Of a stretch of DNA of 20,287 bases, positions 852-11,588 are shown piece by piece (the first letter of the stretch is position 1; every line of letters begins with the position of its first letter). Under the pieces are notes generated by a model. It had not been told where the DNA came from. It was given only the letters and a program-made list of their open reading frames with translations, and ran no database searches. Origin of the DNA: a virus; the IMG/VR virus record IMGVR_UViG_3300042458_000724, positions 1 to 20,287 of that record; one strand, given 5' to 3'. A program made the translations under genes and the position numbers.

Positions 852-1277
852 ATGACAAAAGGAATAAAAAGATTTTTCAGAAGATTAAAATTAAGATTTT
901 ATTTATGGACTAAAAAAAGTGATTATATAGTCCCAACATACGAACCGGAGAAAAGTTCTTATGAAAAAACTTGTTTTCACATTTGTTTAAAGGTTATCAA
1001 ACACCCAGAAACAAAATTTATGATTGCCCCAGTTTCAAACAAAAGATACGTTGAGAATAAATCTATGGATATCTTTATTACAATGATGGACGGGTCTATT
1101 GATTTAACAAATCACGTTTACCATTATAATGTAAAATTAAGTAAAAGGGATTGGGAAAGAATATCTTTTATTTTTGATAATGAAACAGAAAAAAGAAGAC
1201 TTAATTATGAAGATCTCATTAATTCTCAAATTAAAAATTCTCTACACAATGTGTTAGAACGAATATCTAATCTCTGA
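852..1277 (+). CDS. Hypothetical protein, 141 aa
   Basis: No family recognised. The N-terminus (residues 3-21) is strongly basic and aromatic (KRFFRRLKLRFYLW). The body contains alternating hydrophobic strands around residues 75-95 (DIFITMMDGSIDLTNHVYHY), then charged helices. No signal peptide or clear membrane segment is visible. The gene has its own host-like promoter element and a terminator just after it (1296-1317), so it looks like an independent transcription unit. Its last 24 bases overlap, tail to tail, the end of the minus-strand gene at 1254-2012. The host-type promoter suggests expression before the late head genes, but this is inference. Confidence 0.7.
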   Translation: MTKGIKRFFRRLKLRFYLWTKKSDYIVPTYEPEKSSYEKTCFHICLKVIKHPETKFMIAPVSNKRYVENKSMDIFITMMDGSIDLTNHVYHYNVKLSKRDWERISFIFDNETEKRRLNYEDLINSQIKNSLHNVLERISNL

Positions 1278-2012
1278 TAAGATATTAAAAACTATGGAGT
1301 CTACGGACTCCTTTTTTGTTTTATAGGATGTCATAACTGGTTTTTGTCCTTTACCAGATTGAGGATCATTTTTTTCGGCTTTTCTTTTTTGTTGGCAAGC
1401 AGATTTTTTTTGTGAATCCGACATTTTACCCGCAACACCAGCCGCCCTACATTTTGGGTATGATCCTTTATCCGAATCCTGTCTACCACAAGGGGGATGT
1501 TTACCATCAACTTTTCTGCAGATATCAACCCAAGGCCCTTTTGGTTGTGAAGATCCTTTTGGTTTTTTCTTTTTACCAAACCAAACCGCAAGATCCTCAA
1601 CAATTATATCTGGAGTTATCTCAACCCATTCACCAAGTTTAACGACGGTTTTTTTTGGGTCAAAGTTTTTTATTGGTTTTGCATCTAATTTTTTACCCGG
1701 TATTGAGTTCATAACCCCTCCATCGTCAGCAAACGTAAAAGCGTCAGGGTTGTTTTTTATATATTTAGTAATTTTTTCAGCTCTTTTTTCTCTTTTTTTT
1801 ATTTCACTTTTTTTGGTTGACATTTTACCATCTAAACTATCGTGATCTAACATTGCATCATCCCATTGGGTGACAAATTCAGTAAATGGTGCATTTTGAT
1901 GTTTTTCAAACTCTCTATATCCAGGCAATAAAGGGGAAACATAAGAACCTCTAGTTGCTTTTTCAGAGGTCGCCTCTAATAATATTTTCTTTATTAATTT
2001 TTTATCTATCAT
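1254..2012 (-). CDS. Basic phage protein with N-terminal LIKKxLxE motif and four-Cys module (DUF5872-like)
   Basis: 252 residues, Lys-rich. Residues 4-13 (KKLIKKILLE) form a short basic amphipathic helix followed by ATSE; LLE|A fits the (L/I)xE|A cleavage rule of T4-type prohead proteases, and the same EATSE string follows the predicted cleavage point of the capsid protein. Residues about 158-212 hold a cysteine module reading WVDICRK, PPCGR, YPKCRAAGVAG and SACQQKRKAEK. This looks like the DUF5872 type seen in phages and other viruses; that name is from memory and unverified, and the domain's function is unknown to me. Cys spacing suggests metal binding or disulfides. The last residues are read through the neighbour's terminator. 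Inference: a head-packaged, possibly DNA-associated protein. Confidence 0.75.
   Translation of the reverse strand: MIDKKLIKKILLEATSEKATRGSYVSPLLPGYREFEKHQNAPFTEFVTQWDDAMLDHDSLDGKMSTKKSEIKKREKRAEKITKYIKNNPDAFTFADDGGVMNSIPGKKLDAKPIKNFDPKKTVVKLGEWVEITPDIIVEDLAVWFGKKKKPKGSSQPKGPWVDICRKVDGKHPPCGRQDSDKGSYPKCRAAGVAGKMSDSQKKSACQQKRKAEKNDPQSGKGQKPVMTSYKTKKESVDSIVFNILSEIRYSF
1296..1317 (+). terminator. Rho-independent terminator after the 852 gene
   Basis: GGAGTC (1296-1301), loop TACG, GACTCC (1306-1311), then T6 G T4. A 6-bp perfect stem with a UACG tetraloop and a T-tract on the plus strand. It lies 19 bases after the stop of the 852 gene but inside the coding sequence of the convergent minus-strand gene, where it encodes the residues around ESVDS. 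Confidence 0.8.
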
Positions 2013-2036: not shown

Positions 2037-2255
2037 ATGGAAAATGATAATAATAAAGAATTATTTGGTAACTTATTTGGATCCATTGATTTATTAAATG
2101 AAGAACACCTTGAGGTGATTTTATCCACAATGGATAAAGAACACTCAATATATTATTTAGTTGAGTCGGTGAAGGCAGCTCATAAAAGAGGTTCCTTTAC
2201 AATAGGCGAAACGGAAGTTATATCAAAGGCTATTAGAACTGTGTCTAGACAATAA
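2037..2255 (+). CDS. Small hypothetical protein, 72 aa
   Basis: Acidic at the N-terminus (MENDNNKELFGNLFGSIDLL), then two predicted helices, and a C-terminal half with YYLVESVKAAHKRG. No family recognised. It is divergent from the 1254-2012 gene across a 24-base AT-rich spacer that contains the ATATTTAT motif, and its last 33 bases overlap the end of the convergent membrane-protein gene (2223-2702). The leader is A/T-rich without a Shine-Dalgarno, as is usual here. The length is modest, but sensible amino-acid composition and tight packing against a divergent gene favour a real gene. Confidence 0.6.
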   Translation: MENDNNKELFGNLFGSIDLLNEEHLEVILSTMDKEHSIYYLVESVKAAHKRGSFTIGETEVISKAIRTVSRQ

Positions 2256-2702
2256 ACACACTTTATATAACATTAAATGTAGATGATATGAGCATAATGT
2301 TAGTATCCCCCAAACCTCCATCCAAAAGAAACTATTAAAAACCAAAAACAAAATAGATATCAAATATATTGGTAGATAAAATTTAAACCTTTTCGTTAAA
2401 TATAACGGAACCAAACAAGTGACAAAAAAAAGTATTGCAAAAATGTTATGTATCCAAAAATGATCAGGAACTGAAAATGAGGTTAATAATAATAAAAACA
2501 TTGCCGGTATTTTCCATTCATCTAACTCAAAAAAGAAATAACTAACAAGTGCGTTTGTTAAAATAAATAAAAACTGTAAATCGGTTTCCCACGATTGTGA
2601 TATTGATGTTAATTCCCCACAATAAAAATAAATGATAAAAGGTTGTAGTATAGCAAGAACTATAACAAACAACCTTCTAATAAAATCAAAACTTTTTATC
2701 AT
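2223..2702 (-). CDS. Polytopic membrane protein, 159 aa
   Basis: Four to five hydrophobic segments are visible, roughly at residues 8-28, 43-60, 66-80, 86-104 and 112-135, with WKIPAMFLLLL and DHFWIHNIFAILFFV among them. Only short charged loops separate them, so the product should lie in the inner membrane. Its ATG overlaps the stop of the upstream secreted-protein gene by four bases (ATGA, 2699-2702), which indicates translational coupling to that gene. The C-terminal tail overlaps the convergent 2037 gene. No named family is recognised; the look is of small flavobacterial membrane proteins. A role in modifying the host envelope or excluding other phages is possible but not shown. Confidence 0.75.
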   Translation of the reverse strand: MIKSFDFIRRLFVIVLAILQPFIIYFYCGELTSISQSWETDLQFLFILTNALVSYFFFELDEWKIPAMFLLLLTSFSVPDHFWIHNIFAILFFVTCLVPLYLTKRFKFYLPIYLISILFLVFNSFFWMEVWGILTLCSYHLHLMLYKVCLLSRHSSNSL

Positions 2703-4477
2703 CTAATAATTTTTCTCATAGTACCGTCGTCATAAATCTCAATTAGAATACCGTTGGTACTTTCAGGATTAACCTCTTGACCCATTAAATTTATATATTT
2801 AAGGATTTTTTTGTTTGTTATGTCCCTTGTAACTAAAATAGGTCCGTAAGTTTTAAATTCACCATCAATATCGTATTGTTGTAATCTGTAATATGTGATT
2901 GGGTTAATGTTATAATCAATATAAGAATAATTTATATCTTCTGTTGAATTTCCTGCAGAAGTTTTGGTTGTAATTTTTCTCCAATTTTCACCATCCATAC
3001 TTGATTCTAAATCAAAATGACTTGAGTTTTGTTCAGATGCTGTCGACCATTTTACTATATTCCATTGTGGGTATGAGATTGCATCAAATTGAGTAAGTTC
3101 TACTGGTAAAGGTGTTGGTGACGACACAAGAATTTTAAATGTTCCTGTTGTTCCAGCTCCATATTCCCAAAATCTAATATAAATTGTTTCTCCTGGTGTA
3201 AAATCTTCTCTATAAACCCAAGGCATTGCGCCATCCAAACCGTCATCATCGTCACATTCAATTTGGGTTAAAGAACCTATTGTTCCTCTATATATTGACA
3301 TTCCACCATCCGTAATACCACCAGTTTGTGTGTCAAAATCAAGTATTGTAACACCATTAGGTACAACTACTTTAAACCATACGTCTTCACTAACATATAA
3401 TGCACAAGTTGGTGTTGATTCCGTTGTTGTATTTGTTGACCCTACATTTGTAAAAGTTTTATACCCCAAACCATCATTTACGGTTAACGTGATTGCACCT
3501 GACGGATTATCATTAATAGGTGGTGTGGGAGGAGTTGTGCAAGTTCTAGACATTGTAAAGGTTCCTGTGTTTGTTGAGGAACCCGTAGTACTCCAATGAG
3601 CAATATAAATATAATATTGTGTACCATTAGTAGTTGTAAAGGTAAATGTTTCGGAATCACCTGAAAGACCAATATCCTGATTCGTCACATATGTGTATGT
3701 TGACCCACAAGTGGTACCACTCATAATTACCATTTCATGGTCAAATCCAGATCCAGCAACTGAGGTTATTGTTGTTGACTGACCATCGCCAACAAAACTA
3801 TACCAAACACCATAAGGGGATGAATACCCTAAAGGGGCGGTTTCAGACACGGTATTTACTGTAGTTCCTGCAAGTGATGATGTTCCACAAGGTAATAATG
3901 TTGATGAAGAACAATTATCATTTGATGGTGCTGGTGGATCGGTTACAGTTCCATTTAATGTAAAATCATCAAATCTAAAAGTTCCCGTTCCACTTGCCGA
4001 TGAAAGAGACATAACTATAGTTACAGTCCCCGTTAAATTATTTATTGGGTTTGCAACATTTATTGTTCCTGTGGACGAGCCCGTAGTTGGTGCGGTACCT
4101 GACCCAACACTTGTACCATTGATAGACATACTCCAATTTTGAGCCCCTTGATTACTGCGTTGTCTCCAAAAACTAAATGATGTTATTGATAATTGACTAC
4201 CTGAATTAACATTAAAAGTCAATGTAATTGTTGGGGTTCCGCTAGAATTACTAATACCTAACGCCCTACCTGTACTACCACCATAATCAATAAATCCTGT
4301 GAAACTTGTTGTCCAAGAAGATGATGATAGATTTGAATTAAGGATTGTGGGGGCTACGGTATAAGGTTTACCAGTAAAAGCATCAACACCAAAATTGTGT
4401 CGGTAAATCTGTGAATAAAATTTTAGAGTTGTGAACAAACCGAACACAAAAAAGATAAGTAAAAATAGTTTTTTCAT
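2699..4477 (-). CDS. Secreted multidomain beta-rich protein with T9SS-like C-terminal end
   Basis: 592 residues. Residues 1-23 are a signal peptide (MKKLFLLIFFVFGLFTT, ending FYSQ). Residues about 24-180 are a Ser/Thr/Gly-rich beta domain that opens YRHNFG and includes SFSFWRQRS and FRFDDFTLNG. Two further beta-sandwich domains start at NDNCSSST (about 187) and INDNPSGA (about 322), of the pre-peptidase-like kind common in Bacteroidota exoproteins. About 455-550 is a fibronectin-like module that opens PLPVELTQF and includes WSTASEQNSSHF and YYRLQQYDIDGEF, typical of T9SS cargo just before the sorting domain. The last 40 residues (INLMGQEVN, YDDGTMRKIIR) resemble the end of a type A sorting domain. 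It is adjacent to the subtilase and coupled to the membrane protein. It may bind or modify surfaces; no enzyme motif was seen. Confidence 0.85.
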   Translation of the reverse strand: MKKLFLLIFFVFGLFTTLKFYSQIYRHNFGVDAFTGKPYTVAPTILNSNLSSSSWTTSFTGFIDYGGSTGRALGISNSSGTPTITLTFNVNSGSQLSITSFSFWRQRSNQGAQNWSMSINGTSVGSGTAPTTGSSTGTINVANPINNLTGTVTIVMSLSSASGTGTFRFDDFTLNGTVTDPPAPSNDNCSSSTLLPCGTSSLAGTTVNTVSETAPLGYSSPYGVWYSFVGDGQSTTITSVAGSGFDHEMVIMSGTTCGSTYTYVTNQDIGLSGDSETFTFTTTNGTQYYIYIAHWSTTGSSTNTGTFTMSRTCTTPPTPPINDNPSGAITLTVNDGLGYKTFTNVGSTNTTTESTPTCALYVSEDVWFKVVVPNGVTILDFDTQTGGITDGGMSIYRGTIGSLTQIECDDDDGLDGAMPWVYREDFTPGETIYIRFWEYGAGTTGTFKILVSSPTPLPVELTQFDAISYPQWNIVKWSTASEQNSSHFDLESSMDGENWRKITTKTSAGNSTEDINYSYIDYNINPITYYRLQQYDIDGEFKTYGPILVTRDITNKKILKYINLMGQEVNPESTNGILIEIYDDGTMRKIIR

Positions 4478-4505
4478 TAAAATAGTTTTTTAAAAAATAA
4501 GATGT

Positions 4506-4526
4506 CCCCTATAATAAATATAGGGG
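4506..4526. terminator. Perfect 8-bp hairpin between secreted-protein and subtilase genes
   Basis: CCCCTATA (4506-4513), five-base loop, TATAGGGG (4519-4526). On the minus strand it follows the subtilase gene by about 160 bases and precedes the secreted-protein start by 28. No immediate T-tract follows on the minus strand (ACATCTTATTTTTT comes after it), so termination would be weak or partial. The ATATTTAT motif lies across the loop and the first bases of one stem arm (4514-4521), so the same site may be a regulatory element for the 4477 gene. Confidence 0.45.
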
Positions 4527-4601
4527 ATTGTCTCATTAATCAACCATTTTAATGTGTAAATGAATATTCTTGGGGAAATCTTTTATATTTACACTCCTAT
4601 A

Positions 4602-4733
4602 ATGATTATTTTAAATACTATTGTTATTGAAAATGACGATCCTAATAGAAGTGAGTATAATTTTATGTTATCTATTATTTTTTTCATTTTAGTTTTTGTA
4701 TATTTTTCTTACGATTATTCCGTTGTTTACTAA
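4602..4733 (+). CDS. Possible tiny membrane protein, 43 aa
   Basis: An ATG at 4602 opens a 43-codon frame ending with TAA at 4731. The second half is a single hydrophobic segment (FMLSIIFFILVFVYF). It fills much of the 211-base gap between the subtilase and the secreted-protein gene, on the opposite strand, and overlaps the last 45 bases of the subtilase gene. It has no clear promoter or ribosome binding site, and AT-rich DNA readily makes such hydrophobic frames by chance, so this is a weak call. Nothing else apart from the hairpin at 4506-4526 is seen in 4478-4688. Confidence 0.2.
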   Translation: MIILNTIVIENDDPNRSEYNFMLSIIFFILVFVYFSYDYSVVY

Positions 4734-6143
4734 GAAGTAATAACCTGGAAGTGCGTTTTCTATATTCGTTTCTTTACCGTTAATATCCATCACAACCATA
4801 TTTGATACGTCATTACCTAAAGTCGTTTTATATTTACCTGTAGTCCAACCATAATGGTTTCCGTTACCACCTTGATTACCGTTGTTTCCACCACCATTTC
4901 CTGGATTTGAATCATCAACACCATCCTCATCGTTACCGTGACCGTTATTACCATCGTCTACTATTTGAGTCATTCTCCATACTATCTGAATTGCAAGTCC
5001 TGAGTTTAATCTTCCTGAACCAATTTTACCAACATAGTTTGGGTTAAGTAAGTCGATGTTAGTTGCAGATAACCTTAAAATTGAGTCAATCTCTTGGTTA
5101 GTTAAGTCAGGTTTGATTGATAACATTAAAGCCACAGTACCTGTTACAAAAGGAGCGGCAAATGACGTTCCTGAGTTAGTTAAGTACCATCCCGGTGCGG
5201 ATGAGATCGGTACGTCATATCCAGGAGCACATATGTCAACAGAAGCGTTTGTTTGATGTGTTGTGTTTGGATTACCAATAACTCTTTCTATGTTATCCTG
5301 TGAACCGATACTAGTCACAGAGAATACGTTGTTATATGATGCGGGATACACTAAATTATTAGCCCCACCACAAGTAGTTCCGTTACCCGCTGAAGCCACT
5401 ATGAATGTCCCGTTATTATAAACCTCATCAATTGCTTGTTGAGCATAAGTGTTAAAAGAACATCCTGAAGTCCAAGATAAGTTGATTACTTTTGCTCCTG
5501 AGTATGTTGCAACTAACATATCGTTATAGTTCATTCTATAAAGACTAAGTGTTGTGTTATAACCTATTGAAGAATTACCGATAGCGTTATTTGTGTTTCC
5601 TGCGATTATATTTGCCACGGCCGTACCGTGTGTTCTTGTTGATGTGTTTGTGTTGTCATAATAGTTTATTTTACCGTTTAGTTCTTCGTGTGTAGTATAA
5701 TAGTTCTGATCAGATACCGCCACGTTTAAAGTTGGGTTACCTGTCGTATAAGTCCAAGCGGTTTCGGCGTTAATTAAGTTAAGTGCCCAATTTGTTGTAT
5801 ATAATAGACTATAATCATTTGGTAATGATAGTGTTTCATATGTAGGACCATATTCAATACCTTTTAAACCACTCACTTTATGTAGTGCGATATATAAATC
5901 AGTAACGTCACCGTTACAAACAAATTCATACACATTTAACAAAGACTCTTGTTTTGAAGATGGAAGAGCTTGTCTAAACTCAACATCAAAATTGTTATCA
6001 GAAGTTATTGATTGGAATTGTGGATTTCTTTGTAGTTGATCTACGTTTTCTACGGTTACCCATACAGAATTTTTTTGTCCAAAGGATAATACGGTTACTA
6101 AACTGATTAGTAGTGTTAAGATTGTTTTTTTTAGGTTTTTCAT
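4689..6143 (-). CDS. Secreted subtilisin-like serine protease (S8) with T9SS-like C-terminus
   Basis: 484 residues. Signal peptide 1-23 (MKNLKKTILTLLISLVTVLSFGQ, cut after the typical FGQ). Residues 24-110 resemble a short propeptide. The S8 catalytic domain spans about 115-390: Asp145 in VAVSDQNYYTTHEEL, His172 in THGTAVANIIAG, oxyanion Asn254 in ASAGNG and Ser327 in NSGTSFAAPFVTG, so the catalytic set is complete. Residues 397-430 are an Asp/Gly/Asn linker that may bind calcium. The end (VVMDINGKE, then PGYYFLVNNGIIVRKI) matches the last strands of a type A T9SS sorting domain, though about half the usual length. A terminator separates it from the capsid gene and a 200-base leader may give it its own promoter, as expected for an imported gene. 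Likely acquired from a Bacteroidota bacterium. The substrate is unknown. Confidence 0.92.
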   Translation of the reverse strand: MKNLKKTILTLLISLVTVLSFGQKNSVWVTVENVDQLQRNPQFQSITSDNNFDVEFRQALPSSKQESLLNVYEFVCNGDVTDLYIALHKVSGLKGIEYGPTYETLSLPNDYSLLYTTNWALNLINAETAWTYTTGNPTLNVAVSDQNYYTTHEELNGKINYYDNTNTSTRTHGTAVANIIAGNTNNAIGNSSIGYNTTLSLYRMNYNDMLVATYSGAKVINLSWTSGCSFNTYAQQAIDEVYNNGTFIVASAGNGTTCGGANNLVYPASYNNVFSVTSIGSQDNIERVIGNPNTTHQTNASVDICAPGYDVPISSAPGWYLTNSGTSFAAPFVTGTVALMLSIKPDLTNQEIDSILRLSATNIDLLNPNYVGKIGSGRLNSGLAIQIVWRMTQIVDDGNNGHGNDEDGVDDSNPGNGGGNNGNQGGNGNHYGWTTGKYKTTLGNDVSNMVVMDINGKETNIENALPGYYFLVNNGIIVRKIYKN

Positions 6144-6254
6144 TTTTATTGGTTTTTTTATTATTAGTTACTCACTACACCAATAGATACGTGAGATACC
6201 CACTAAAAACCACTTTTTGATACCCCCTAAACAATCACTTTACGACATGGGTAC

Positions 6255-6266
6255 TATGTTAACATA
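6255..6266. promoter_or_regulatory. 12-bp perfect palindrome TATGTTAACATA in the subtilase leader
   Basis: Perfect inverted repeat in the 226-base gap between the capsid and subtilase genes. A second, interrupted one (ACGTA, six bases, TACGT) lies at 6276-6291. On the minus strand the latter contains TATCTTTA, one base off the Bacteroidota -7 element. Together they could be a promoter and operator for the subtilase gene. The rest of the gap (6144-6250) shows GATAC repeated three times at 6184-6223 and nothing else I can name. Confidence 0.3.
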
Positions 6267-6310
6267 TGTAAGACCACGTAAAGATATACGTAGTTAGTAC
6301 TAAATTTCGT

Positions 6311-6345
6311 TAAAATAAAAAAGGAGACAATTTCTTGTCTCCTTT
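6311..6345 (-). terminator. Strong rho-independent terminator after the major capsid gene
   Basis: Minus strand: AAAGGAGACAA, GAAA tetraloop, TTGTCTCCTTT, then TTTATTTTA. The 11-bp stem is perfect, and the T-tract is on the minus strand only. It begins 24 bases after the capsid stop codon and insulates the head operon from the subtilase cassette. Confidence 0.92.
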
Positions 6346-6369: not shown

Positions 6370-8208
6370 TTATCTCAATTCTCTTAAATCAAATGTACGA
6401 ACTCCATCAACTGTGATTCTCGCGTAAAAACGGTTATTAACCATCTTCTTAGCGTATCTCGTCATTATACCTTTGATCGGTGTAAAGTTGAACGGGTTAT
6501 ACATTGTAGGTGTTAATTGTAGAGGTACATACGGTGCGTAAATGTAACCAGTGTCAAGTAAAGATGTTCCTTTGTGACCAATCAAGATTTGATTTGGTGG
6601 GAAGTAAGGATCTCTATATACTTGGTAACGACCAGAAAGTGTACCAACTCTTTCAATACCCATGTTGTATTGATCTTGCTCAGGAGACGCGTTAGATACG
6701 TGGAAGTATTCTAAATCGTCAAAGATTGCAGAAATCTCAGAAGAAACGATAATCCAGTTAGCTCCACCTCTCAAAGTTGATTTGTGAATTTGAGCTGACA
6801 ATTGGTTAACCGCAGTAATCAAAGTTTGATTCCAGTCTTTTTGAGTATAAGATGTAGTTAAAGACAATCTTCTCCATCCGTTGTAATCCCAACGTAGGTT
6901 CCAAGCCGCTCCTTTACGTAAGTCACGTAAAATTTCACGGTCAATCTCAGCTGCTACTTGTTCAGACAATAAAGCTGTTAATTCAGCCTCAGCGTCAATG
7001 TTGTGGAATGCCGCAACGTCTTGAGCTAATTCTGGAGACCATTGTGCTCTTAATTTTCTTTCAGTTACAGAAACTGTTACTGACTCTAAATCAAAAGAAA
7101 CCTCACCGATCTCATCTTGGAATTCAAGATTTTCATATGTTCTATAAACTGCTGTGAAATCAGTGTTACCTAATGTACCGATTGTAGAACCAGTATAACC
7201 ATCTAAAGAGTCATCACCACAAGTAGGACAAGCCGGACAAGATAGATCAACTTCTAAATAGATACAACCTGTTACGTCACAGATGTTGTTATAAGAACCA
7301 CCATTTCCTGTTTGAGGGAATGTTGTGTTAACTTGAGCACCGTAATTAACAATACCTTTACCATATTGTTGAGTAACTACTCTAAATAATAATGGTCTGA
7401 AATTACCGTTAGAGTCTTGTAATGCGTTACAAGTATCTGCAGATGTTGTGAAATCTGTATTAGCGAAGATTTTAAGGTCAGACAAGAAAGTCTCAGTATC
7501 AACCTCATTTCCGTCAGGACCGATTAATTTACCAGCTCCCTCACCTAAAGTTCTGAAATCACATAATGAAATAATAACTTTTCTAACGTTTTTGTTATTG
7601 TATTCACCAGCAGCATTTGATAAACCTCCGTTATTCCATACTTGTACTGTAGTGTCTGCGGTAACCGCTGACCATCTACCTTTTGAGTAATCAAATAAAC
7701 CAGCAGGATCTAAACCAGCTTCAGGACCTTCATAGAATAAATCATAAAGATTTTTCTTGAATGCGTTTGCGTTCGGTAAGTAACCATCTCCAACACCACC
7801 AATTCCTGGATTGTTAGGTGAACCTACAGGTGCGTAATGATCTGCAGTGTTTGTTGGGTTAGTTTGTTGGTATCCTTGAATACGTGGTACAAAGAAGAAC
7901 AATTTACCAATAGGTAAGTTCATTGCTTGTACAGAAACGATATCGTTAGCTAACAATTTAGAGAAAACTCTTCTTACGATAGGGAAAACAACTGTTTCAA
8001 ATGCTCCGTTAGAACCTTCAGAAGTTGCTTCGTTAATCAAGTGAGAAGCTTGGTTTTCATATAACTGAGCTACGTTTTCTTTTAGGTGGCCTTTAAGACC
8101 TTCAAGGAATCCTAATCTATCCCATTTGTTAATTGTATCTTCTTTGATAACTTTAAGGTGTTTTAACCCTATGTTACCAACAAGACCTGATTCTAATAAT
8201 GCTCCCAT
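6370..8208 (-). CDS. Major capsid protein, T4 gp23-like
   Basis: 612 residues; forms the hexameric head lattice. Recognised by blocks shared with T4 gp23: VRR then ANDIVSVQAMNLPIGKLFF (about 79-105), SVTERKLRAQWSPELAQD followed by a DAEAELTALL segment (about 380-415), and the C-terminal GYIYAPYVPLQLTP with KGIMTRYAKK (554-588). The prohead N-terminal arm is residues 1-60; HLINE|ATSE fits cleavage by the gp21-type protease after Glu60, as T4 gp23 is cut after its residue 65. An unusual insertion at about 300-340 carries C310, C315 and a CPACPTC cluster (C324, C327, C330). It is longer than T4 gp23 (521 residues). It follows the scaffold gene and has a long A-rich leader, with ATATTTAT 38 nt before the ATG. 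Confidence 0.95.
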   Translation of the reverse strand: MGALLESGLVGNIGLKHLKVIKEDTINKWDRLGFLEGLKGHLKENVAQLYENQASHLINEATSEGSNGAFETVVFPIVRRVFSKLLANDIVSVQAMNLPIGKLFFFVPRIQGYQQTNPTNTADHYAPVGSPNNPGIGGVGDGYLPNANAFKKNLYDLFYEGPEAGLDPAGLFDYSKGRWSAVTADTTVQVWNNGGLSNAAGEYNNKNVRKVIISLCDFRTLGEGAGKLIGPDGNEVDTETFLSDLKIFANTDFTTSADTCNALQDSNGNFRPLLFRVVTQQYGKGIVNYGAQVNTTFPQTGNGGSYNNICDVTGCIYLEVDLSCPACPTCGDDSLDGYTGSTIGTLGNTDFTAVYRTYENLEFQDEIGEVSFDLESVTVSVTERKLRAQWSPELAQDVAAFHNIDAEAELTALLSEQVAAEIDREILRDLRKGAAWNLRWDYNGWRRLSLTTSYTQKDWNQTLITAVNQLSAQIHKSTLRGGANWIIVSSEISAIFDDLEYFHVSNASPEQDQYNMGIERVGTLSGRYQVYRDPYFPPNQILIGHKGTSLLDTGYIYAPYVPLQLTPTMYNPFNFTPIKGIMTRYAKKMVNNRFYARITVDGVRTFDLRELR

Positions 8209-10919: not shown

Positions 10920-11588
10920 TTATTTAAATTTCCATTTATATCCACCAGCACTCCTCCTTTGGTTATTAGCACACATTCTAATTGAGTTTCGGTTTATAGA
11001 TAAGTATTCGGATACTTCTTTTAAAGATCCCCAACCGGTAATAAAATTACCATCTAAGTCGTATTGGTCCACCGGTTTAAATTTACTTTCAATACAATAC
11101 TTTGATTGTTTCCTACCAAACATAGAATTTTTTTCACCTTTTCTTTTTTCGGATAATGACTTTCTACCTTCTTCGGTTAACTTTCTTTTTTTTGCGGATT
11201 CGCTCATTATTTTAATAGTTTCTTCAGTAAAAACCCTACCCTTTAATTTTTGTGAAATTAATTTATTTATTTCATCACCAAAATTACCACCATCCCCACC
11301 TTCAGTTAAATTTGTTAAATTATAACCCTTATCTTTATAGTATTTTACCCAATATTTTTCTTTTTCACTCCACTCATATTTTTGAACAGTGTCTATAATT
11401 TCCATTATTGGTTTTTTGTCTTCCTTAAGTAATTTTTGAATCCAATTATTCTTATAAGTTTTTTTATATTTACTTTTTCTTATGTGTTCTATAATTCTTT
11501 CTTTTGGATTATCGGATTTACCAACATATCTAATTTCATTATCATTGGGGTCTCTCAATACATAAATATATGTATATGTTTCTATCAT
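10920..11588 (-). CDS. Free-standing GIY-YIG homing endonuclease
   Basis: 222 residues. GIY-YIG nuclease domain at 5-100: YIYVL (7-11), RYVGKS (20-25), Arg31, the conserved Glu in SEKEKYW (74-80) and NLTEGGDG (93-100). Residues about 113-160 are NUMOD3-like DNA-binding repeats (GEKNSMFGRKQ). Residues 173-221 are a NUMOD1 module (VDQYDLDGNFITGW, SLKEVSEYL, RRSAGGYKWKF). It cuts DNA site-specifically and spreads its own gene. It sits between a conserved hypothetical gene and the prohead protease, almost abutting the latter, and no intron boundaries are seen, so it is an intergenic homing gene rather than an intron-encoded one. It is intact. Confidence 0.93.
   Translation of the reverse strand: MIETYTYIYVLRDPNDNEIRYVGKSDNPKERIIEHIRKSKYKKTYKNNWIQKLLKEDKKPIMEIIDTVQKYEWSEKEKYWVKYYKDKGYNLTNLTEGGDGGNFGDEINKLISQKLKGRVFTEETIKIMSESAKKRKLTEEGRKSLSEKRKGEKNSMFGRKQSKYCIESKFKPVDQYDLDGNFITGWGSLKEVSEYLSINRNSIRMCANNQRRSAGGYKWKFK

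Follow-up and report, generated by a model that had tools for sequence, protein, structure and literature searches.

A T4-like phage in which the capsid gene is followed by genes for proteins built like the secreted cargo of Bacteroidota raises the question of where such genes came from, whether the infected cell would export their products, and what the phage would gain from this export.

The cassette and its place in the phage genome

The window, which is the whole stretch of DNA analyzed here and comprises the entire 20,287 bases of an IMG/VR virus record, encodes a large terminase, a portal, a gp21-type head protease, and gp23 on its minus strand, all identified by family matches and lying in a single block, which bears out the T4-like setting proposed in a sequence-only reading of this DNA. 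A GIY-YIG/NUMOD homing endonuclease is encoded directly upstream of gp21 (10920-11588, minus strand). In the 3' direction, gp23 is followed by a terminator, a subtilisin gene, the gene of a 592-aa protein, and the gene of a 159-aa membrane protein (Table 1). The sequence-only reading had delimited these three reading frames correctly (484, 592, and 159 aa, all on the minus strand), and was also right on the ATGA overlap of the last two (2699-2702), the intact catalytic set of the subtilisin, and the strong terminator that separates the cassette from the capsid gene, which has a folding energy of -19 kcal/mol (z -3.8), a value equaled by 0 of 200 shuffles. A scan for sigma-70 promoters found no excess over shuffled sequences.

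Table 1. Coordinates of the cassette, its parts, and its borders in the window.
Feature	Positions	Strand	Basis or remark
Conserved phage gene, downstream border of the slot	1254..2012	-	
Membrane protein, 159 aa	2223..2702	-	ATGA-coupled to the 592-aa gene
592-aa multi-beta-sandwich protein (predicted secretion)	2699..4477	-	Signal peptide, Fn3-like module, short tail
37-residue short tail, KKILKYINLMGQEVNP..GILIEIYDDGTMRKIIR	2702..2812	-	Three predicted strands
Fn3-like module, residues 456-550	2828..3112	-	AlphaFold2 pLDDT mostly 80-90; conserved in slot proteins
Signal peptide of the 592-aa protein, residues 1-22, FYS/Q	4412..4477	-	Sequence
Pre-pro-subtilisin, 484 aa	4689..6143	-	PF00082 (Peptidase_S8) E 7e-29; PDB subtilisins by sequence and fold
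Shortened type A sorting tail, residues 438-484	4692..4832	-	Motif B DINGK, motif D PGYYFLV, motif E VRKIYKN
S8 catalytic domain, residues 116-394	4962..5798	-	Asp145, His172, Asn254, Ser327
Putative I9-type propeptide, residues 24-105	5829..6074	-	AlphaFold2; family assignment inferred
Subtilisin signal peptide, residues 1-22, SFG/Q	6078..6143	-	Sequence; kept in all phage homologues
Subtilisin gene leader	6144..6319	-	Inverted repeat CTATTGGT...ACCAATA just 5' of the ATG
Intrinsic terminator, gp23/cassette boundary	6320..6345	-	Folding and shuffles; found in relatives too
Major capsid protein gp23	6370..8208	-	PF07068 E 8e-72; upstream border of the slot

The subtilisin is composed of a signal peptide, an I9-like prodomain, an S8 catalytic domain, a linker rich in Asp, Asn, and Gly, and the short sorting tail. 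The catalytic Asp, His, and Ser, together with the oxyanion Asn, the PF00082 match, and the match to the subtilisin fold, place it in Peptidase S8 (the subtilases), and the four residues are invariant in 11 phage sequences, as well as in a set of 17 phage and cellular sequences. In the AlphaFold2 model, the propeptide region (approximately residues 25-98) has a beta-alpha-beta pattern, with a pLDDT of mostly 65-85, and because the region of residues 24-105 folds like a subtilisin propeptide, with moderate confidence, the enzyme is probably made as a zymogen. No relative of the subtilisin was recovered from the INPHARED phages by tblastn. The leader of the gene contains an inverted repeat, CTATTGGT...ACCAATAG, that abuts the ATG (6143-6195, minus strand), and a comparison of homologous leaders (window, L004, L013, L097, and L160) revealed compensatory changes in this repeat, CTATTGTT/AACAATAG and CTATTAGT/ACTAATAG; it is also present in the copy of L160, which was acquired independently.

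The relatives of the 592-aa protein contain CUB, GEVED, Fn3, or GBD_T9SS_assoc modules. The PDB held no sequence match to this protein, and the fold matches, with a TM of about 0.1-0.2, were set aside, while a tblastn search of INPHARED recovered just weak matches to the Fn3 module and tail, in uncultured phages of 460-640 kb. Stretches that resemble the Fn3 module and tail are found in two uncultured phages of 635-642 kb (L211, LR745206.1, and L212, LR756502.1), the second of which also encodes a 236-aa ORF with a signal peptide and a short tail. The slot genes of the 592-aa type have a TATTTATTA box some 10-30 bases 5' of the ATG, similar to a variant of the T4 late promoter, which was observed in the leaders of the window (4505-4527), L019, L021, L117, L121, L129, L137, L153, and L154; in the window, this box sits within an inverted repeat, TCCCCTATATTTATTATAGGGGA. 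Homologues of the membrane protein come after the same kind of gene in four relatives (L006, L010, L019, and L023).

A subtilisin that is 67-100% identical to that of the window, with most or all of its length encoded, was found in 17 other IMG/VR contigs (95-100% in three of them, 77-78% in most), and the search of related phages for the same cassette recovered the gp23-subtilisin junction in 16 of these contigs (L001-L016), which come from many metagenomes. The cassette segment recombines, given that the subtilisin of L003 is 95% identical to that of the window, but its gp23 only 78%. A survey of 44 loci, chosen by gp23 alone and each extending 4.5 kb or more beyond it on the downstream side, found that the slot of 13 loci encodes a protein with both a signal peptide and a sorting tail and that 31 lack the cassette; endonuclease-like ORFs occupy the slot in several other loci. 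These ORFs have 226-578 aa in L098, L103, and L105, for example. At three loci (L138-L140), the site is empty, with the next core gene beginning 294 bases after gp23 and nothing between them, so the proteins of the cassette are not essential.

The slot proteins of the relatives include SprB-repeat, CUB, GEVED, and GBD_T9SS_assoc modules. In L010 (9101-9790), an SprB-repeat protein of 229 aa is encoded between gp23 and the subtilisin. It has a signal peptide and a short type A-like tail (17.8 bits, under the cut-off); a role as an adhesin decoy is possible. A third, different subtilase (PrtP-like, 751 aa, with a signal peptide) lies in the slot of L125 (8478-10733), after an endonuclease-like ORF. 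The large, phage-like contig G013 (L024 / L206-L210; 175,894 bases) encodes type A and type B T9SS proteins, a DnaK-like protein, a gp32-like SSB, and a SusC/TonB-receptor-like protein that adjoins T9SS cargo. The cut-off of TIGR04131 was exceeded in the contigs of two relatives, G013 and G007.

Signal peptides and C-terminal tails

Both N-termini look like Bacteroidota signal peptides, as had been read from the sequence, when judged by a simple sequence rule. This rule was applied alike to the phage ORFs that have either tail and to the other ORFs, with a choice of start codon that favors signal peptides in both groups, and returned a signal peptide in 32 of the 32 distinct tail ORFs and in 40 of the 705 others (Fisher, 2.6e-36); several phage tails had themselves contributed to the profiles by which they were matched, and the remaining tails were found independently. 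All 32 tail ORFs combine a Sec signal peptide with a candidate C-terminal signal, which is the combination that defines T9SS cargo, and the signal peptides strongly suggest that the cassette proteins are exported by Sec.

Both C-termini had been likened to type A sorting domains, a likeness that was upheld for the subtilisin, through its relatives, and that is marginal for the 592-aa protein. Neither TIGR04183 nor TIGR04131 matched the window proteins, the two C-termini included, even at an E-value of 10, and the scan of the whole record was also negative. Nearly all the cellular homologues of the subtilisin that have a readable C-terminus, however, end in a long type A-like domain, which is kept in the phage homologues L024 and L160. 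With TIGR04183 (cut-off 23 bits), the scores were 58.2 bits for L044, 39.5 for L046, and 40.6 for L160, while L024 scored 18.7 bits in the protein scan and 24.1 in the genome scan. In the clade of the window, only the last 47 residues of this domain remain, with motifs B, D, and E, which are found in the subtilisin tails of all the phage copies, and the first strands (YPNP) are missing. The profile of the 47-residue tail scored 33.2 against the long type A profile (probability 92.7), in comparison with a maximum of 15.5 in 100 column shuffles. On the evidence of these profiles, the tail is demonstrably a shortened type A sorting domain, and the failure of the TIGR models in the window is explained by the presence of the long domain in the relatives, of which the window clade has the remnant. 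The structure prediction proposed for the C-termini placed strands within residues 450-483, at low confidence. The subtilisin-type short tail is nearly absent from the host genomes (1/100, E 7e-4), so the hosts may not use exactly this form.

The 37-residue tail of the 592-aa protein belongs to a distinct short family, with a marginal link to type A. AlphaFold2 predicts three strands (558-562, 577-582, and 587-591; pLDDT 68-89), the Gly of motif B is present, and GxY is mostly absent. The match to the long type A profile is weak (score 18.4, shuffle maximum 15.6), and because this score barely exceeds the shuffles, the tail is taken as a sorting signal by association and not by homology. A profile of the phage tails found it in 56 of the 100 genomes of the G016 family (Lishizhenia, Crocinitomicaceae), to which the hosts probably belong, with a best E of 8.6e-15 and up to ten tails per genome. 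Several of these tails lie on one megabase contig (G117), which indicates that they are not merely phage contamination of the MAGs. In the host loci retrieved, 0-5 residues lie between the end of the best tail match and the stop codon, and a signal peptide is found at the start of most of the complete ORFs. Across the phylum, the tail is found in 3 of 297 genomes, all of them SprA-positive versus 229 of the 297 overall, which is too rare for a test of co-occurrence. This tail of the Crocinitomicaceae may be an undescribed sorting signal that deserves a model of its own. In L054-L095, the tails follow the pattern ..GxEx......IYSDGxxxK.., which is apparently outside the coverage of TIGR04183.

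One relative, L024, has a body of the 592-aa type that ends in a longer, PNP-bearing region instead of the short tail, with 22.0 bits against PF18962, under the cut-off of 27. This comparison, in which one kind of body bears either a long or a short end, has the appearance of a swap that took place in nature.

Origin and history of the subtilisin

Homologues of the subtilisin at E <= 1e-60 are found in 26 of the 100 genomes of the G016 family, and all those with readable C-termini have the YPNP domain, with the single exception of L201. The nearest cellular homologues (712-721 aa) come from MAGs of Crocinitomicaceae and other Flavobacteriales, and have the full YPNP domain at their end; those in named MAGs are 47-57% identical to the phage protein over the prodomain and catalytic domain. 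They adjoin ordinary chromosomal-type genes, among them icd- and recJ-like ORFs. In a maximum-likelihood tree built on the prodomain and catalytic domain, 15 phage rows form one clade (100/99) within the diversity of the hosts, with L024, which has the long domain, branching first, and L160 is placed apart from this clade, among the hosts. The subtilisin of L160 begins 206 bases after gp23, in the same position as that of the window, and the clade of 15 and the separate L160 together indicate that a subtilisin entered the slot at least twice. The subtilisin gene of L024 lies away from gp23, on a contig without any gp23 match. By its homology, the phage subtilisin is a gene captured from Crocinitomicaceae-type hosts, and its sorting domain most likely shrank within the phage lineage. 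The phages probably infect Bacteroidota of the Crocinitomicaceae type, a host deduced from the same homology.

The subtilisin has a dN/dS of 0.10-0.19, which indicates purifying selection on the gene as a whole. The cassette had been proposed to be a moron-like import, of which the derivation of the subtilisin from a host stands. It has a terminator-bounded leader of its own and a patchy presence (13/44), as a moron would, yet its GC is capsid-like (0.36 in the two cargo genes, 0.37 in gp23) and its phage clade is old. A recent moron is disfavored by this single clade, the dN/dS, and the GC.

Export, possible benefit, and known systems

The reading preferred here, in which we place considerable confidence, is that the phages have a cargo slot behind gp23, whose tagged proteins are exported by the type IX secretion system (T9SS) of the host. 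Published short signals make such tails plausible, and on this basis we infer the export; its processing and timing are proposed as well. Guided by their signal peptides, the cassette proteins would cross the inner membrane through Sec, and their short C-terminal signals would then direct them through the T9SS of the host across the outer membrane. In this reading, the subtilisin is a captured host T9SS protease without its middle part of approximately 300 residues and the first half of its sorting domain. It would travel as a zymogen inhibited by the prodomain, and become active in the course of infection, either on the cell surface or after release. As to its target and the advantage to the phage, our best guess is that the surface of the infected cell is remodeled by the clipping of adhesins or matrix, which may be phage receptors or traps for the progeny. 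This clipping would limit superinfection and aid release. The surface proteins of the gliding machinery have been proposed as receptors of Flavobacterium phages (PMC7345892), which makes the stripping of receptors a reasonable guess. A more specific version, which combines a dedicated "secretome slot" of Crocinitomicaceae T4-like phages, minimal signals, of which the subtilisin tail evolved in the phage and the 37-residue tail comes from an undescribed short-signal family native to the host lineage, and a receptor-stripping protease that acts in superinfection exclusion, is tentative.

A nutritional or ecological benefit of the export, including the opening of matrix, is a live, if less likely, alternative: the infected cell would digest algal matrix or protein in its surroundings, which would make this an auxiliary metabolic function. 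Copiotrophic bacteria of fresh water probably use the cellular relatives as ordinary secreted peptidases, and the published phage T9SS cargo includes glycoside hydrolases (PMC7468147), but a single infection cycle is short, and the slot also holds adhesin-like and SprB-repeat proteins, which are a better fit to the modification of the surface.

Export by Sec only, with the proteins staying in the periplasm or outer membrane and the subtilisin cutting the envelope from inside for lysis, is unlikely. The tails would then be degenerate, as the absence of the first YPNP strands, the lack of a TIGR04183 match, and the near absence of the subtilisin-type tail from the hosts might indicate. A degenerate tail is, however, difficult to reconcile with the persistence of motifs B, D, and E in every phage copy of a gene that is under purifying selection as a whole, the recurrence of the 37-residue tail at C-termini in 56 of the 100 host-family genomes, and the function of short signals in P. 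intermedia (PMC11969387). It is very improbable that the proteins are components of the virion, that is, Ig-like decorations of the head or tail and a virion-associated protease, even though the genes come directly after the capsid gene, virions often bear beta-sandwich modules, and PHROG 3677, annotated as "protease", contains an S8 domain: the signal peptides of all 32 tail ORFs, the terminator and separate leader that divide the cassette from gp23, the nature of the nearest cellular relatives, which are T9SS cargo, and the empty sites all argue against this. An assembly chimera of host and phage DNA, which host-like proteins within a phage contig might evoke and which the sequence-only reading had named as the alternative that would overturn it, is rejected, given that the same junctions recur in 16 other independent, diverged contigs from different metagenomes, and that the GC of the cargo is close to that of the capsid gene.

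Export of the cargo by the T9SS of the host, the preferred reading, has its closest parallels in two groups of phages and one bacterial species. The literature searches found nothing later on phage T9SS cargo in the open literature than the two papers on these phages (PMC7468147 and PMC6949934), and nothing relevant on Crocinitomicaceae phages with secreted proteins. The sorting ends had been described as about half the normal length, which left the efficiency of export in doubt; they are indeed short, but this is no defect per se, given that the short CTDs of Prevotella intermedia (43-55 aa) undergo cleavage and glycosylation, and that models seat them in PorV as they do the long ones (PMC11969387). 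The same paper states that P. intermedia is the only species reported to have both long and short CTDs. Compared through this published description and not by alignment, the subtilisin tail has the features of these short CTDs, that is, a length of approximately 40-55 aa, motifs B, D, and E, a three-stranded sheet, a short distance from B to D, and a basic residue after the Gly of motif B, which is K/R in the subtilisin tail (PMC11969387). P. intermedia is an oral bacterium with cellular cargo, whereas the present tails are found in phages and freshwater Flavobacteriales. With HBP35, the PorT-dependent transport of GFP to the surface needs the last 22 residues, which contain motifs D and E, but not motifs A-C (PMC3120885). 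The secreted S8 subtilases of the Crocinitomicaceae (L044, L046, L047, and L050) share a homologous prodomain and catalytic domain with the phage enzyme, but have a middle region of approximately 300 aa and a full sorting domain of 72 residues, in contrast with the 484 aa of the phage form.

Beyond Prevotella, these findings indicate two short T9SS-type signals that escape the standard models, so that many secreted proteins, in freshwater Flavobacteriales as in their phages, probably go unrecognized. The sequences allow direct tests of how small a signal may be and of what surface proteolysis contributes to infection.

The control of the outer-membrane secretion of the host by phages has so far been noted in passing, for two groups of phages. 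Cryophage (Bellas et al. 2020, PMC7468147), a Bacteroidetes phage, has variable genes with T9SS type A domains, as here, for which a hijack of host secretion was proposed and which were termed a "unique occurrence"; this phage has 76 kb, and its cargo consists of an endoglucanase, a glycoside hydrolase, and a PA14 protein, the available passages describing neither a T4-like nature nor short signals. In the crAss-BACON cluster 2 phages (2019, PMC6949934), ORFs with T9SS sorting domains are found upstream of the head section, and adjoin head genes as in the present phages, but these are BACON-domain proteins of gut phages, and the available passages describe neither a protease nor short tails. 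Phage-encoded T9SS cargo is, then, already known; what is new, to our knowledge, is the existence of a slot dedicated to it, the convergence by which a subtilisin was captured, and the short tails. In comparison with Cryophage, the present phages are T4-like, their slot has a fixed place behind gp23, a subtilisin has entered it at least twice, and the signals are shortened. Here, the control of secretion looks systematic, with a single position in the genome, host proteases of one kind that were captured repeatedly, and export tags that are conserved.
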